Shown piece by piece: positions 37,968-61,545 of a stretch of 64,000 nt of DNA. The stretch lies in NCBI RefSeq assembly GCF_006517815.1, contig NZ_CP041198.1:4030001-4094000 (forward strand). Reading direction: 5' to 3'. The notes below the pieces were generated by a model that was not told the origin of the DNA, searched no databases, and saw only the letters and a list, made by a program, of their open reading frames with translations. This DNA comes from Pseudarthrobacter sp. NIBRBAC000502770 (GTDB lineage: Bacteria; Actinomycetota; Actinomycetes; Actinomycetales; Micrococcaceae). The stretch's first letter is position 1; the number at the start of each line of letters is the position of its first letter. A program made the position numbers and the translations under genes.

Positions 37968-37970
37968 AAA

Positions 37971-38022
37971 ACTGCTCCCCGAAAGTCAGAACTGATTTCT
38001 CAGTCCAACTTTCGGGGAGCAG
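37971..38022. repeat. Hairpin just upstream of orfA at the IS right end
   Basis: The segment starting ACTGCTCCCC at 37971 is a near-perfect inverse copy (one extra C) of the right-end repeat segment ACTTTCGGGGAGCAGT at 38007-38022. The pair can form a long hairpin in the orfA leader with about 20 nt of loop. Confidence 0.7.
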
Positions 38023-38027
38023 TTCAC
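38003..38027 (-). repeat. IS right terminal inverted repeat
   Basis: Read inward on the minus strand it begins TGAACTGCTCCCC and matches the left repeat at 24 of 25 positions. Confidence 0.88.
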
Positions 38028-42681: not shown

Positions 42682-43632
42682 TCAGCGGCCGAAGTGCGGG
42701 TGCGGCGCACCTTCGGGCAGGCGCTCAAGGATGTCTTCGGCCACCTTGCGGACCTTGATGTTCCGGTGGCTCGAAGCCTTGGCAAGGATGGAGAAGGCCT
42801 CCTGGTAGGAGCACCTGTTCTGGGCCATGATCACTCCGCACGCCACGTTGATGGAGGTGCGGCTGTCCAGTGCCGAGCGGAGGTCGCTGGCCAGCGAGCG
42901 TGCAGTGTGCAGGTTGATGGCCATCTGGAGGCTTCTCGTGGCCAGCTGCGCGAAGCTTCGTGCTTCGGCAATGGCCTGGAGTGGGAAGGCTTTTGCGTCC
43001 TGGGCGAAGAAGGCGAGGGCAGCGCTCGACTGGCCGAGGTTGCTGGTGCCGGGGACCCCGTCGTCGGAGGGAAGATCAGCGTCCAGGCGAAGCCTGACGG
43101 CAAGGGTGCTGCCGAAGCCGGCCGCCTGCAGGTGGCTTGAGTACTGCCGCCACCGGAAATCGCCGTTGCGTTGGAGGACCGCCACGGGGTGGCCGCCGGA
43201 CATCACATCGGTCACCGGCCCCTCGGCCCTTTCCCGCTCCCAGTCGAGCAACCGGACTATCTCGTCGGTGGTGCCGGTGATTACAGCCCCGCGCTTGGGC
43301 TGCAGCAGCACCAGTCCGCAGCCCACATCGATTCCGGCGGTCCGGACCACGTGGACAGCCGATGCTGCCACCAGCAGGTCCAGGGAATCTGCCAGGGTCT
43401 GGGCGCCGTTCACCAGGTCAAGAAGAAGGGCGTTGTTCCGTGGAGCCGCCCGTACTTGGCTGGCAGCGGAGGGCAGGGGGGAATGCCCGCCGCGGCGGGC
43501 CAGACGGGCCGGAGGGCCGGCGACGGCTGGGGGAGAGCCCTTGGTCTCGAAGGACTCCTCGTCGCCGGCCCCGCCTATTACCCGGGTCCGGTGGACCGGG
43601 AAGCTTGGGCCTACATGTTGTGAGTGATGCAT
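42682..43632 (-). CDS. GAF-ANTAR domain RNA-binding regulator
   Basis: A 316-residue protein with a basic, Pro/Ala-rich N-terminus (~1-60), a GAF domain (~70-240; DSLDLLVAASAVHVVRTAGI, CGLVLLQPKRGAVITG) and a C-terminal ANTAR domain (INVACGVIMAQNRCSYQEAFSILAKASSHRNIKVRKVAEDI, quoted in overlapping parts: INVACGVIMAQNRCS, EAFSILAKASSHRN). ANTAR proteins bind paired RNA hairpins and cause antitermination. No target hairpins are evident nearby. Confidence 0.9.
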   Translation of the reverse strand: MHHSQHVGPSFPVHRTRVIGGAGDEESFETKGSPPAVAGPPARLARRGGHSPLPSAASQVRAAPRNNALLLDLVNGAQTLADSLDLLVAASAVHVVRTAGIDVGCGLVLLQPKRGAVITGTTDEIVRLLDWERERAEGPVTDVMSGGHPVAVLQRNGDFRWRQYSSHLQAAGFGSTLAVRLRLDADLPSDDGVPGTSNLGQSSAALAFFAQDAKAFPLQAIAEARSFAQLATRSLQMAINLHTARSLASDLRSALDSRTSINVACGVIMAQNRCSYQEAFSILAKASSHRNIKVRKVAEDILERLPEGAPHPHFGR

Positions 43633-47871: not shown

Positions 47872-49598
47872 GCTTCGACATTCCGCGCCGGCAGTACGCC
47901 GACCTCTACGGACCCACCACCGGTGACAAAATCCGCCTGGCAGATACCGAACTCTTTCTGGAAATAGAAAAGGACCTCACCGTGTACGGGGAGGAAGTGG
48001 TGTTCGGCGGCGGCAAGGTGATCCGTGACGGCATGGGCCAGAACGGCCAGGCCGCCCGCGACGAGGACATCCCGGACACCGTGATCACCAACGCCGTCAT
48101 CCTGGATTACACCGGAATCTACAAGGCAGACGTGGCGCTGAAGGACGGCCACATCTTCCGGATCGGCAAGGCCGGCAACCCGCAGATCACGGACGGCGTG
48201 GACATCGTGATCGGCTCAAGCACGGAAATCATCGCCGGCGAGCGGAAGATCCTCACCGCCGGCGGCATCGACACCCACATCCACTTCATCTCTCCGGACC
48301 AGATCCCGACCGCCCTGGCCAGCGGCGTGACCACCATGATCGGCGGCGGCACCGGCCCGGCTGAAGGCACCAAGGCCACCACCGTGACGCCCGGAAAGTG
48401 GCACATCCAGCGGATGCTGCAGGCGGCTGAGGCGTTCCCCATGAACATCGGCCTGTTCGGCAAGGGCCACGCGTCCGCCGTCGAACCCCTCGCCGAGCAG
48501 ATACGCGCCGGGGCCATCGGGCTCAAAGTCCACGAGGACTGGGGCGCCACCACCTCCTCCATCGACACCTCGCTGAGGGTTGCTGACGAATACGACGTCC
48601 AGGTGGCCATCCACACCGACACCCTGAACGAGTGCGGGTTCGTGGAAGACACCATCCGGGCCATCAACGGGCGCGTGATCCACACCTTCCACACCGAGGG
48701 CGCCGGTGGCGGCCATGCCCCGGACATCATCAAGATCGCGGGCATGCCCAACGTCCTGCCCGCCTCCACCAACCCCACGCTGCCCTACACGCGCAACACC
48801 ATCGAAGAGCACCTGGACATGCTGATGGTCTGCCACCACCTCAACCCGGACATCCCCGAGGACGTGGCCTTCGCCGATTCCCGGATCCGTGCCGAGACCA
48901 TCGCCGCCGAGGACGTCCTGCAGGACCTGGGCATCTTCTCCATCACCTCCTCCGACTCCCAGGCCATGGGCCGCGTGGGCGAGGTGATCACCCGCACCTG
49001 GCAGGTGGCGGACAAGATGAAGAAGCAGCGCGGGGTGTTGGAAGACAACGACGGCGGGGCGCACGGCAGTGCGGACGGCGACAACTTCCGGCTCAAGCGC
49101 TACGTGGCCAAATACACCGTCAACCCCGCCATCGCGCAGGGGATCGCAGACACCGTAGGGTCAGTGGAAGTGGGCAAGTTCGCGGACCTGGTGTTGTGGG
49201 ATCCGGCATTCTTCGGGGTCAAACCGGAACTGGTGCTCAAGGGCGGACAGATTGCCTACGCCCTGATGGGTGACTCCAACGGGTCCATTCCCACCCCCCA
49301 GCCGCGGACCATGCGGCCCATGTTCGCCACCTTCGGCAAGGCGGTTCAGCAGTCCTCCATCACCTTCCTGTCCCAGGCAGCGATCGACGCCGGCGTGCCC
49401 GGGGAATTGGGGCTGGAAAAGGTCATCCGCCCCGTCTCCGGCATCCGGAACCTCACCAAAGCCGACCTCAAATACAACGACGCGACGCCCGATATCCAGG
49501 TGGACCCGGAAACCTACCAGGTGACGGTGGACGGCGAGGACGTCACCTGCGAACCGTCCGACGTGCTGCCCATGGCGCAGCGGTACTTCCTCTTCTAG
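47868..49598 (+). CDS. ureC: Urease alpha (catalytic) subunit UreC
   Basis: Nickel hydrolase that splits urea to ammonia and carbamate. The 576 residues have the metal-binding GIDTHIHF, the carbamylated Lys220 in [31 protein letters not shown], the active-site flap Cys/His in MVCHHL and the Asp ligand region SDSQAMGR. All key residues appear present. GTG start. Confidence 0.98.
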
Positions 49599-49630: not shown

Positions 49631-50116
49631 ATGATCATCGACAAAGTCCTGGGCAACCTGCACGACCTGCCGGACTCCGACCTCGCCGCCTACGCCGGTC
49701 TGCACCGCGAAAAAGTCGTCCTGCCCAGTGCCCAGCTGGTCAAACGCATCCAGCGCGCCACCACGGACCACGGCAAAGAGATCGGCATCCGGCTCCCGTC
49801 CGGGTCAGGCGACCTCCGTGATGGCGACATCCTCCACGTCGCCGACGCCAACATGATCGTGGTGTCGGTGCTGCCCACCGACGTCCTGGTCATCGCACCC
49901 CGCACCGTGCACGAAATGGGCGTTACCGCACACTCCCTTGGCAACCGGCACCTCCAGGCACAGTTCTTTGACGCGTCCTCCGAATACGGGGCCGATGTCA
50001 TGGTGTGCGCCTACGACCACACCGTCGAGGACTACCTCCGCCACAACTCAGTGCCCTACACCCGCCAGGAACGCGTCATGCCTGTGCCTTTCCGCCATGC
50101 TGAACACTCGCACTAG
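49631..50116 (+). CDS. ureE: Urease accessory protein UreE, nickel chaperone
   Basis: A 161-residue protein that delivers nickel to the UreDFG-apo-urease complex. The N-terminal UreE domain contains RGLPSGSGDLRDGD-like GIRLPSGSGDLRDGDIL and the C-terminal metal-binding domain has LGNRHLQAQF with a conserved-position His. It lacks a long poly-His tail, ending FRHAEHSH. It is 32 bp after ureC. Confidence 0.94.
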   Translation: MIIDKVLGNLHDLPDSDLAAYAGLHREKVVLPSAQLVKRIQRATTDHGKEIGIRLPSGSGDLRDGDILHVADANMIVVSVLPTDVLVIAPRTVHEMGVTAHSLGNRHLQAQFFDASSEYGADVMVCAYDHTVEDYLRHNSVPYTRQERVMPVPFRHAEHSH

Positions 50117-50164
50117 TACCAGCGTCGCGCTGCGCGCTCCAATACCGGTGGGGGCTTGGGACGC

Positions 50165-50230
50165 CGCGAGGGATATGGGGCCGTGCCCGCTCCGCGGTGC
50201 CCGCCACGCCGCGGCCCCATATCCCTCGCG
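50165..50230. repeat. Urease-operon hairpin repeat, copy 1 (ureE-ureF)
   Basis: A 19-bp perfect stem (arms 50165-50183 and 50212-50230, reading CGCGAGGGATATGGGGCCG on the left) around a 28-nt loop (50184-50211). The loop and the inner seven stem pairs (GGGGCCG/CGGCCCC) are identical in copy 2, while the outer stem differs yet stays fully paired. GCTTGTCTCACC follows at 50237-50248. Confidence 0.9.
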
Positions 50231-50263
50231 CCGCTTGCTTGTCTCACCTTTGGCGGCGGTTCA

Positions 50264-50932
50264 GTGAGCGATTATCAGCTTGCTCTTCAGCAATTGGTGG
50301 ACTCTGCGCTTCCTACTGGGGCTTTTGCTCACTCTTTTGGGTTTGAGACCTACATCGATCGGGAGCTCGTTCTTGATGAAGGGTCTTTCGGGCTCTGGCT
50401 CGGTGCCTTCGTCGGCCAGCAGCTGACCTATTCCGATGGGCTTGCCGTTCGGCTGTACTACGAGGGGGTTGATCTTGGGGAGCTGGATTCTTTGCTTTCT
50501 GCTTCTCTTTTGCCGCGGCAGGTTCGGGAGGCCAGTTTGAAGATGGGCGGCCGGCTTTTGGAGATTGGAGCTGAAGTGTTTCCTTCGCCCGCCCTGGACC
50601 TGTACCGGGAGCTCGTGACCACCGGCCGGGCCGCCGGGCATCAGCCGCTGGCGTTCGCCGTCGTCGCCCGCTCACTGGGCGTGCCGCTCCAGGAAGCGCT
50701 CGCCGCCTACCTCTTCGCCACCGTCACCTCCCTCACCCAGAACGCCGTCCGCGCCATCCCCCTGGGCCAGAACGCCGGGCAGCGGGTGCTGCGGAAAGCG
50801 CACGACGACGTCGCTGCCGCCATCGCCACGATCGCGCACCTGACGGCGGACGACTTCGGCGCCGTCAGCCCCGGACTGGAAATTTCGCAAATGCGGCACG
50901 AACGCCAACGTGCCCGCATGTTCATGAGCTAG
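50264..50932 (+). CDS. ureF: Urease accessory protein UreF
   Basis: A 222-residue helical activation factor acting with UreG and UreD to load nickel. It has the UreF opening DYQLALQQLVDSALPTGAFA followed by HSFGFETYI, and ends QMRHERQRARMFMS. Start GTG 50264 is chosen from family similarity; the frame is open upstream through the hairpin repeat. The first ~105 codons use many A/T-ending codons (16 of the first 30), unlike ureG (4 of 30). From about base 50590 normal GC-rich usage returns, suggesting mosaic origin. Confidence 0.94.
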   Translation: MSDYQLALQQLVDSALPTGAFAHSFGFETYIDRELVLDEGSFGLWLGAFVGQQLTYSDGLAVRLYYEGVDLGELDSLLSASLLPRQVREASLKMGGRLLEIGAEVFPSPALDLYRELVTTGRAAGHQPLAFAVVARSLGVPLQEALAAYLFATVTSLTQNAVRAIPLGQNAGQRVLRKAHDDVAAAIATIAHLTADDFGAVSPGLEISQMRHERQRARMFMS

Positions 50933-50944
50933 CAGGAGGAAACC

Positions 50945-51559
50945 ATGACCGAACCCATCAAAATCGGCATCGGCGGGCCCGTCGGCGCCGGTAAAACCCA
51001 GCTCGTGGAGCGGCTCACCCGGCACATGAGCGGCGACATCTCCATGGCCGCCATCACCAACGACATCTACACCATCGAGGACGCCAAAATCCTCGCCGCC
51101 AACGGCATCCTCCCCGTGGACCGGATCATCGGCGTCGAAACCGGCGGCTGCCCCCACACCGCCATCCGCGAAGACACCTCCATGAACACCGCCGCCATCG
51201 AGGAACTCAAAACCCGCCACCCCGACCTTCAAGTCATCTTCGTCGAATCCGGCGGCGACAACCTCTCCGCCACCTTCAGCCCCGAACTCGTCGACTTCTC
51301 CATCTACATCATCGACGTGGCCCAAGGCGAAAAGATCCCCCGCAAAGCCGGCCAAGGCATGATCAAGTCCGACCTCTTCATCATCAACAAAACCGACCTC
51401 GCACCCCACGTCGGGGCTGACCTGGCCATCATGGAGAGGGACTCAAAGGAGTTCCGCGGCAATAAGCCGTTCTGCTTCACGAACCTCAAGACTGACGAGG
51501 GACTCGACAAGGTCATCGACTGGATCCGGCACGACGTCCTGATGCTTGATTTGGCATGA
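50945..51559 (+). CDS. ureG: Urease accessory GTPase UreG
   Basis: A SIMIBI-class GTPase of 204 residues that couples GTP hydrolysis to nickel insertion. P-loop [12 protein letters not shown], the nickel-binding CPH-type motif in [15 protein letters not shown], and [10 protein letters not shown] for guanine recognition. AGGAGG precedes ATG 50945. Its stop overlaps the ureD ATG (ATGA). Confidence 0.97.
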
Positions 51560-52521
51560 GCACGACGGCGGAGTCCAGTTCAGCGCTTGTCTCACCGGGG
51601 CCTGCGACCGCGGGTGATAGGGGCCGTGCCCGCTCCGCGGTGCCCGCCACGCCGCGGCCCCTATCACCCGCGTCCGCTGATCGGCCCCCGATGGGCGAGC
51701 TTGAGCTTGTGGTCGCCTTGCGTGGACAGCGCACAGTTGCGGCGCATCAGTACCATCGCGGTGCTCTTCGGGTTATGCGGCCGCATTACCTCGATAACTC
51801 CGGGCAGGTTTGTTATGTCGTTGTGAATCCTGGCGGGGCCTATCTGGGGGCTGACCTGTTCTTGCTGGATGTGGAGGTGGGGGACTCGGCATCTCTGTTG
51901 TTGACCACCCAGTCCGCTACGAAGGTTTATCGGACTCCCGGGTCCTTTGCCGAGCAGCGGATGGCTGTCCGGCTGGGGGAGGGGGCTCGGCTGGAACTCA
52001 TGCCGGACCAGCTCATCGCCTACCGGGAGGCCAGCTACCGGCAACGGACCTCTGTAACCTTGCGGCCGTCGTCGTCCTTGGTCATGGCCGAGGTGGTGAC
52101 GCCCGGCTGGTCGCCGGACGGCGCCGCCTTCCGGTATGAGGAAGTGCGGCTGAGGAACCACATCTGCGTGGAAACCGGGGCGGGCACCGAACTGCTGGCG
52201 TTGGACAACCTGCTGATCCGGCCGCCGCTGCACCACGTAAGCGGGCTCGGTTTCATGGAAGGCTACAGCCACCTCGGATCCCTGGTGGTGGTGGATCCCC
52301 GGGTGGACCAGGCGCTCGCCGACGAACTGCACCTGCTGACCGCCGGCAGCGAAGCGCTGACCGGCATCTCACTGACGCGCCCAGTTGCGGGAACCGCCGG
52401 GCTGGTTCTGCGGAGCCTCTCCAACAGCACCGACGAACTGAACCGCCTGCTTCGGTCCTGCACCGACTTCCTGCGCAGTCGCTGGTACGGCCAAGGGCCG
52501 CTGGACCTGAGGAAGCACTGA
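51556..52521 (+). CDS. ureD: Urease accessory protein UreD (UreH)
   Basis: Scaffold protein that binds apo-urease and recruits UreF/UreG. The ATG at 51556 overlaps the ureG stop and gives 321 residues, but family similarity begins at [20 protein letters not shown], just after an internal ATG at 51691 (276 residues, the usual length). Residues 18-39 of the longer form are encoded by the hairpin repeat copy 2. Core motifs include GPGGA-like [12 protein letters not shown] and [11 protein letters not shown]. Codons after 51691 are A/T-ending more often than later in the gene. Confidence 0.92.
51609..51672. repeat. Urease-operon hairpin repeat, copy 2 (inside the long ureD frame)
   Basis: An 18-bp perfect stem (arms 51609-51626 and 51655-51672, left arm CGCGGGTGATAGGGGCCG) with the same 28-nt loop (51627-51654) as copy 1. 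The outer stem sequence differs from copy 1 but both arms have changed together. GCTTGTCTCACC lies upstream at 51585-51596. Confidence 0.9.
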
Positions 52522-55529: not shown

Positions 55530-55596
55530 TGCTGGTCCTGTCAGTGGAGGGGCTGGACGACCACGACGGCTGCGACAGGCAGCCGGGGCCGAGTGG

Positions 55597-55610
55597 TGGG
55601 AGCGCTCCCG
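55597..55610. promoter_or_regulatory. CebR-like LacI operator, site 1
   Basis: TGGGAGCGCTCCCG matches the actinobacterial CebR box TGGGAGCGCTCCCA at 13 of 14 positions. It lies between the divergent beta-helix gene and LacI gene, 68 bp from the former's start. Confidence 0.8.
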
Positions 55611-55653
55611 TCGGGAGAGCGTAGCATCGGGATTTTGCCCCGGCAAGGGTTGA

Positions 55654-55667
55654 CGGGAGCGCTCCCA
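55654..55667. promoter_or_regulatory. CebR-like LacI operator, site 2
   Basis: CGGGAGCGCTCCCA, again 13 of 14 to the CebR box, centred 57 bp from site 1 and about 30 bp before the LacI start codon, suggesting autoregulation. Confidence 0.8.
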
Positions 55668-55696
55668 CGCTGGATCGGTGTCGTATTGTCGGTGTA

Positions 55697-58032: not shown

Positions 58033-58114
58033 CGGTAGTAATTCCGATGGTACGGCAGAAAGCACGGCACCGGCCTTGACCGGTGCCGTGCTTTCCCACA
58101 TGTCTTGAAATCCG

Positions 58115-61462: not shown

Positions 61463-61545
61463 ACTGTTAACAATTGATGGACACCAGTGTGACCCACATC
61501 ATTATGACTGTCAACAGTCGACTTTTAGAGTTGACTGTTGACAGT
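61463..61545. promoter_or_regulatory. Divergent control region with three GntR operator sites
   Basis: ACTGTTAACAAT (61463-61474), ACTGTCAACAGT (61507-61518) and ACTGTTGACAGT (61534-61545); the last two are exact reverse complements. They lie between the divergent MFS and isomerase genes. A plus-strand promoter TTGACT (61531-61536) / TATTGT (61555-61560, 18-bp spacer) overlaps the third site, a good position for repression. Confidence 0.7.

Follow-up and report, generated by a model that had tools for sequence, protein, structure and literature searches.

What kind of element keeps its loop constant and its arms perfectly paired while the sequence of those arms changes from copy to copy? Two hairpins in the urease operon of Pseudarthrobacter sp. 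NIBRBAC000502770 raise this question. They lie in the window analysed here, a stretch of 64,000 nucleotides (assembly GCF_006517815.1, contig NZ_CP041198.1, positions 4,030,001 to 4,094,000, forward strand), to which all positions below refer. We consider the hairpins to be, probably, copies of a mobile palindrome of the Micrococcaceae that behaves like the palindromic elements of Rickettsia and is subject to a structural constraint specific to a single strand. Copies were dispersed over unrelated sites in both orientations, were present in some relatives and absent from others, and usually lay in open reading frames; their arms covaried, and one-sided changes in the stems were biased towards one strand. 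Loci of our surveys are cited below by L numbers and genomes by G numbers.

The initial annotation had described two hairpins with identical loops and seven common inner pairs, and the sequence bore this out. Their parts are as follows.

50165..50183, + strand: left arm of copy 1, 19 nt, consisting of CGCGAGGGATAT (variable) and GGGGCCG (common to both copies)
50184..50211, + strand: loop of copy 1, constant 28 nt, the short-loop form of the element
50212..50230, + strand: right arm of copy 1, complementing the left arm perfectly
51609..51626, + strand: left arm of copy 2, 18 nt, consisting of CGCGGGTGATA (variable) and GGGGCCG (common to both copies)
51627..51654, + strand: loop of copy 2, constant 28 nt, exactly equal to the loop of copy 1
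51655..51672, + strand: right arm of copy 2

Copy 1 (50165-50230) is a perfect 19-bp stem around a 28-nt loop, and copy 2 (51609-51672) is a perfect 18-bp stem around the same loop. The perfect parts measure 66 and 64 nt, with imperfect outer pairs beyond them. The seven inner pairs (GGGGCCG/CGGCCCC) are the same in both; the outer arms differ, yet each pairs perfectly. Among perfect hairpins with loops of up to 160 nt, these were the two longest in the 64 kb, the next longest arm measuring 17 nt. A chance origin was rejected, since the longest arm reached only 14 nt in 10 dinucleotide-preserving shuffles of the window, against 19 and 18. The folding energy of copy 1 was 6-7 standard deviations below that of shuffled sequences on both strands, as RNA and as DNA, and so was that of copy 2 on the + strand as RNA. 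When up to three mismatches were allowed, a 25-nt core of the element matched the window only at copies 1 and 2 (0 expected). A third core copy was located between grpE and dnaJ of the same genome, and a broader covariance model detected no further convincing copy there (three copies; the fourth match had an E value of 2).

Further copies and pairing-preserving variation, the two things for which the initial annotation had looked to relatives, were both found. The exact 30-nt core occurred in 22 stretches of the named genome records, all from Arthrobacter or Pseudarthrobacter. With up to three mismatches it was present in 108 of 198 genomes of the genus, and the reversed-pattern control gave 0 among the rows listed. 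A covariance model built from 41 short-loop copies (R1) matched 16 of 149 family genomes, in 6 of the 32 genera sampled, own genus counted. The broader model (R2, threshold E ≤ 0.001) gave 85 matches, spread over 37 of the 41 genomes examined from the genus, with 0-5 per genome; a few of the 85 are weak or belong to related cores (the sole match in G032 has an E value of 7.8e-4, and G008:C1 is a related glpK core). Stricter filters applied to the searches of the family (149), the genus (41) and the order. For the order, 297 sampled genomes, with only 16 candidates scored in each, gave no match beyond the genus, a weak negative that missed the family's other genera too. Viral contigs contained 0 exact matches and phages 0, and the plasmid matches consisted of one to an inner module of the element and a partial one, on two Arthrobacter megaplasmids; a phage or plasmid origin was rejected on these grounds. 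In our urease survey of 110 fetched loci, the element occupied 78 of 110 ureE/ureF junctions and 78 of 109 readable ureG/ureD junctions, with both occupied in 66 loci and neither in 20 of 110. The occupation of both sites in 66 of 110 loci also excluded an assembly artefact. The junction scan comprised 157 matches, of which a few had odd lengths (62, 80 and 87 in L109, L146 and L150) and the minus-strand row of L146 was doubtful.

Variation among these copies preserved the pairing. In the 41 short-loop copies, 20 of 24 pairs had changed on both sides, and 191 double-change cells were counted against 74.9 ± 7.6 in shuffled alignments, with a covariation score of 0.460 against 0.147. The broad set, whose alignment was fitted to the structure and is hence biased towards it, gave 286 double-change cells against 89.9 and a score of 0.783 against 0.167. 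Inner stem positions were 98% Watson-Crick (2247/2292), and wobble pairs were nearly absent.

The one-sided changes that did occur were unevenly distributed between the strands. Comparison of one-step stem neighbours (191/194 unique copies, 99 stem types; the comparisons are not all independent) gave 22 A.C mismatches, 1 G.T, 18 other one-sided changes and 14 double changes, and a smaller count gave 12, 0, 4 and 10, respectively. Among distinct stems in structure-fitted alignments, A.C and G.T numbered 14 and 4 in a mostly non-urease set and 9 and 1 in the urease set; this count excludes three antisense rows and two rows belonging to neighbouring second elements, and the non-urease set, drawn from 96 sources, includes two urease loci (L188, L300). 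Because an A.C mismatch on this strand is a G.T wobble pair on the other, the opposite strand, complementary to GTGCCCGCTYCGCGG, seems to be the one whose folding is under selection. A complete path of change was observed at ureF, from G-C (L102) through A.C (L113, L124) to A-T (L111). The same bias was seen in inverted ureD copies in two events (L106/L126/L159 and L147), and it would therefore follow the element, not the operon. At ureF and glpK the tolerated one-sided changes point to the non-transcribed strand. On the strand complementary to GTGCCCGCTYCGCGG, the loop reads CGNAG, with A or G at N in most copies, a sequence like that of C(GNA)G, a triloop of single-stranded DNA that is very stable.

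The element occurs in two sizes, about 65-95 bp with a short loop and about 120-150 bp with a long loop, the latter being the short form plus 57 nt (exactly 19 codons) that fold into further hairpins. When the long form was cut out, about 133 nt around the element were taken. Either loop may stand within the same arms at one site, as at ureF of L064 (long) and L066 (short), and the inner module of the long loop was found without the remaining element on a plasmid. In the inner stem of the long loop, A.C again exceeded G.T, with a nearly constant A.C at the base.

The copies recurred at ureE/ureF, ureG/ureD, grpE/dnaJ (two positions), cysH/cysD, argB/argD, the 3′ end of glpK and the interior of FruA. 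Further sites, named by reading translations, lay 3′ of an amino-acid permease gene convergent with a mannitol-1-phosphate dehydrogenase-like gene, and upstream of a gluconate-permease-like gene (gntT); by reading, another genus has the element at infB/rbfA. Its presence at chaperone, sulfate, arginine, glycerol and sugar-transport loci led us to reject urease-specific riboregulation. Copies in ureD stood in both orientations (61 + rows and 18 - rows, one of the 18 doubtful), as did those in ArgD. Arms varied from site to site and, at a single site, between species, and were unrelated at distant sites. Nevertheless, near-identical arms were carried to unrelated places. An intergenic copy in G044, a genome without a UreG match, shares about 83 bp, with both arms and a 3′ tail TCAG, with inverted ureD copies of other species (L189 compared with L125 and L129; L119 has one loop difference), and in G033 the ureF copy and the one upstream of the gluconate permease gene are nearly identical over 66 bp (L115, L182). 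On this sequence evidence, it is as a whole unit, arms included, that the element appears to move. Of the 32 empty ureE/ureF junctions, 26 were merely 20-59 nt long and had no such palindrome. The suggestion in the initial annotation that the arms are built from local sequence was therefore not supported, and no arms copied from the target were seen at ureF. A near-empty ArgD allele (L328), possibly the product of a deletion, shares the right-arm side with the element. Arms of two different types were combined in the ureD copies of L064, L080 and L094, in the ureF copy of L129 and in a copy behind ureG (L104, 1913-2045), and these copies have apparently recombined within the common loop.

The glpK survey covered 50 loci, of which 20 were hand-chosen and 14 were not anchored (the anchor was found elsewhere). 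The 36 anchored loci comprised 17 with the element (2 with the long loop), 4 with a related core, 12 with a plain short-loop hairpin and 3 with a partly deleted core. Since the arms of core-bearing hairpins are unlike those of the plain hairpins, the whole hairpin seems to be exchanged at this site, not the loop alone.

Other repeats accompany the element at some of these sites. A second hairpin family of the same design lies beside the first between grpE and dnaJ of the present genome (L003, 1607-1707) and also in L008, L025, L037, L041, L042 and L054; its perfect arms and its inner stem vary around the constant segments CGCCCCTACGC and GCTCCGGCAGGCCCGATGCCACTCCC, which themselves show small variations, and a related core stands at glpK in L218, L241, L244 and L255. 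Another short palindromic repeat, GGTGGTTGAGCCTGTCGAAACC (translated VVELVETRG), was observed at ureE/ureF, ureG/ureD and ArgD N-termini (for example in L107, L096, L323, L330 and L338). Because this repeat landed at the same junctions and at the same N-terminus, the three places may be hot spots for several elements.

Beyond what the initial annotation had noted, copies 1 and 2 both lie within open frames, and the element is usually found in an open, putatively translated frame. The genes around the two copies are as follows.

49631..50116, + strand: ureE
50097..50267, + strand: leader open reading frame, with its ATG within the end of ureE, running through copy 1, and its TGA overlapping the GTG of ureF (GTGA)
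50264..50932, + strand: ureF, with a probable GTG start right behind copy 1, placed by reading; Pfam UreF match at 50261-50929
50945..51559, + strand: ureG
51556..52521, + strand: ureD open reading frame, with copy 2 in frame as the N-terminal extension and the UreD domain match starting at residue 88

Copy 2 is in frame inside the N-terminal extension of UreD, and in 66 of 78 element-bearing ureD loci the frame stays open across the element in a common phase, which 29 of 31 empty loci have as well. At ureE/ureF, 72 of 78 element-bearing loci are in one phase and 29 of 32 empty loci in another. In 67 of the 78, a leader frame begins with an ATG in the end of ureE, reads across the hairpin and terminates in GTGA, ATGA or TTGA, which holds a start codon in the ureF frame. 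These leader frames overlap the ureF start, and ribosomes therefore likely pass the hairpin. The element was carried by 13 of 30 ArgD loci, in frame in 13 of 13, nine of them encoding GVVGHREAG or a variant and four, inserted the opposite way round, ARFAVPDH or its long form; shorter ArgD alleles look like in-frame deletions. These 30 loci are the best of 121 genomes for an element-carrying query, and the fraction is not a frequency. In FruA, the peptide GDGGRGVVGHREAGTTP lies in the linker between EIIA (4-144) and EIIB (189-279); it was present in 13 of the 120 best-scoring of 7928 proteins, likewise a fraction that is not a frequency, and 19 of 28 parsed linkers were without the peptide and mostly Ala/Pro-rich. 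One other genus carries the element in the linker of an E2 acyltransferase. Selection for the frame, common descent and the loop difference divisible by three all contribute to the in-frame state, and the frames through the element are presumably translated in the cell.

These properties recall several known systems. Palindromic elements of Rickettsia are about 150 bp long, lie in frame and are fused to host genes (PMC10969869); they are reported to occur in unrelated genes, to keep the frame open and to add a peptide (PMC10969869, PMC2694212). The present element is likewise palindromic, dispersed and in frame in unrelated genes, and its long form is similar in size. Its body is a palindrome folding as one long hairpin, as in the Rickettsia elements of about 100-150 bp, the short form falling below about 150 bp, and the open in-frame insertions in UreD, ArgD, FruA and E2 appear to match theirs. 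It differs in belonging to another phylum, in its low copy number, in its constant loop with freely varying arms, in its long and short loop forms and in the strand bias of the tolerated stem changes. The likeness is one of behaviour, drawn from descriptions, and membership of the Rickettsia family is not claimed. Miniature inverted-repeat transposable elements are similarly small and non-autonomous with inverted repeats, but their terminal inverted repeats are fixed, and here the inverted repeats are the variable part. The attC sites of integrons are recognised as one folded strand, with stem sequences that vary and a structure that is kept. The element shares this variable stem within a kept structure; attC, however, has conserved end boxes and a variable apex, and here the apex is constant. 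The portions consulted of PMC12306157, PMC10969869 and PMC2694212 do not describe the element, and a search of the open-access literature for palindromes in Arthrobacter, Micrococcaceae or Actinobacteria brought up no account of it (subscription papers lay outside this scope).

On the explanation that we favour, a mobile palindrome with a single-strand constraint, what defines the element would be the loop together with arm pairing, and not the sequence of the arms, and it would disperse as a whole unit with its arms. It would survive where translation is unharmed, at operon junctions, in N-terminal extensions, in interdomain linkers and at 3′ ends. We infer that its mobilisation, now or in the past, passes through a folded single strand whose complement is GTGCCCGCTYCGCGG; such a route would account for the retention of pairing and wobble tolerance on that strand in either gene orientation.

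Several observations weigh against this explanation. We found no mobilising enzyme or transposase for the element, the scan for Y1_Tnp covering 198 genomes (to our knowledge, none has been identified for the Rickettsia elements), and saw neither an excision nor a fresh insertion within any one species. Genomes carry few copies, many of them old orthologues whose perfect arms could reflect a selected local role, re-insertion in recent times or templated correction, and a local function might likewise account for the constant loop. In the broad set, further pair types numbered 55 against 53.2 in shuffled alignments, and 174 of 500 shuffles reached 55. The strand bias comes down to few independent events, and a cruder mismatch count, in which most long forms were lost, gave 5 A.C and 0 G.T among 35, with C.T and C.C dominating. 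The mixed-arm copies have mismatched arms, so pairing is dispensable in them, and 12 of 78 ureD copies are off the common phase (4 open, 8 closed).

The strong covariation and the constant loop would also be expected of a cis-acting RNA element in host transcripts, such as a riboregulator or a processing or stability hairpin, whose loop is bound by a common RNA-binding factor. Its sites at operon junctions and 3′ ends are places where mRNA hairpins act, and at glpK the hairpin occupies the place of the plain terminator-like hairpins of relatives. We nevertheless regard an RNA element as unlikely, as orientation to the host gene varies between sites and even within the ureD and ArgD sites, and the one-sided changes on the transcribed strand of ureF are mostly A.C, not G.T; the few glpK copies sampled (L296) agree. 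A ribosome translating the hairpin would, moreover, unfold it, and Rfam 15 gave nothing at gathering score over the element, its match to MIR8670 over the ureF copy of L060 being at chance level (22.9 bits against 150 needed, E 2). The urease riboregulator or RNA processing site considered in the initial annotation is disfavoured by the non-urease loci, the two orientations and the indicated non-transcribed strand. A different division of the element, with pre-existing host hairpins or terminators as arms and only the loop mobile (the short core, or core plus inner module) and inserting at apices, would account for arms that are unrelated between sites. The ordinary short-loop hairpins of core-less glpK relatives agree with it, as do the long form, which resembles a second module at the apex of the short loop, and the module that stands alone on a plasmid. 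The core-less glpK arms, however, differ from core-bearing ones, and the three that are similar look like core deletions. Near-identical arms also travel with the core, and 26 of the 32 empty ureE/ureF junctions are too short for such a palindrome, which makes loop insertion quite unlikely.

Pairing might also be kept without selection, if hairpin-templated (quasipalindrome) correction during replication copied a mutation in one arm to the other. The near absence of wobble in the 98% Watson-Crick inner stem would fit, as would double changes that include A-T/T-A flips which no wobble can bridge (L061/L066 against L070). However, the bias follows the strand of the element in both ureD orientations (in two events in the inverted copies), the stepwise series G-C, A.C, A-T exists, and correction of the arms alone leaves the invariant loop and the dispersal unexplained; we consider this very unlikely. 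Repetitive extragenic palindromes (REPs) with their transposase RAYT (TnpA-REP) are short palindromes, scattered over the genome, that probably move in the form of folded single strands, and the element is similarly short, palindromic, partly extragenic and found in both orientations. As to the REP-like mobile palindrome proposed in the initial annotation, the dispersed and probably mobile palindrome stood, but a strict REP did not. A REP would be expected in tens to hundreds of copies outside genes, all following a fixed consensus; here we counted 0-5 copies per genome in 41 genomes (three in the present one), frequently in coding frames, and arms without a fixed sequence. Y1_Tnp was matched in 2 of 198 genomes, one of them above the cut-off, so that 196 had no match; the present genome had none, and 5 of 14 control genomes had one. 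With Y1_Tnp above the cut-off in 1 of 198 genomes, a REP/RAYT system was rejected for nearly all carriers and is hardly credible as the general explanation.

If the mobile palindrome is accepted, the element would be a counterpart, in free-living actinobacteria, of the protein-coding palindromes whose described home is Rickettsia in the literature covered. The many sequenced relatives would make the way in which such elements move directly testable, and natural presence/absence pairs, both orientations at one site and partial deletions are at hand as resources. The strand signature would predict the strand bound by a recognising protein, the candidate being the GGCGTGGCGGGCACCGCGAAGCGG strand. 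Some of these bacteria would have mobile DNA read as protein in the FruA linker and in the stretches that extend the N-termini of UreD and ArgD, and the copies provide many natural stems with a conserved structure and an almost free sequence. A bolder view, to which we give a rather low probability, is that these copies represent a new class of selfish DNA set by the shape of a folded strand: only the loop would be fixed, the stem pairing with any sequence, modules of one design would nest in each other's apical loops, spread would be single-stranded, and hosts would tolerate the element through its open frames and translate it into enzymes and linkers.

The initial annotation also pointed to a shared sequence, GCTTGTCTCACC, downstream of copy 1 and upstream of copy 2. 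It is present at both places, but is at best a loosely associated motif.

50237..50248, + strand: GCTTGTCTCACC, first occurrence, loosely associated with the elements and probably outside them
51585..51596, + strand: GCTTGTCTCACC, second occurrence, loosely associated with the elements and probably outside them

Both occurrences are exact; a search tolerating one mismatch would be expected to give 0.35 matches in the window, and two or more turned up in 4 of 100 shuffles. A related motif, TCACCTTNGG, is more frequent close to the copies (12 in 31 kb, compared with 25 in 303 kb), but was not counted as part of the element because only a minority of copies have it nearby. Copies 1 and 2 have no T tract after the stem; some glpK copies (L257, L245) end in T runs. 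By eye, the start of ureF (about 50230-50580) and that of ureD (from 51690), downstream of the hairpins, contain many codons ending in T or G, and the remainder of the urease operon has C-rich third codon positions. Elsewhere in the window, the Rfam family 5_ureB_sRNA matched 48019-48312 on the - strand, antisense to a ureC-like gene (120 bits, E 5e-32), a match that may merely mirror conserved coding sequence. Further perfect inverted repeats, whose arms measure 12-17 nt, lie at 37970-38024, 43514-43571, 55596-55668, 58058-58095 and 61507-61545; the one at 55596-55668 contains GGGAGCGCTCCC palindromes and resembles a regulator operator.

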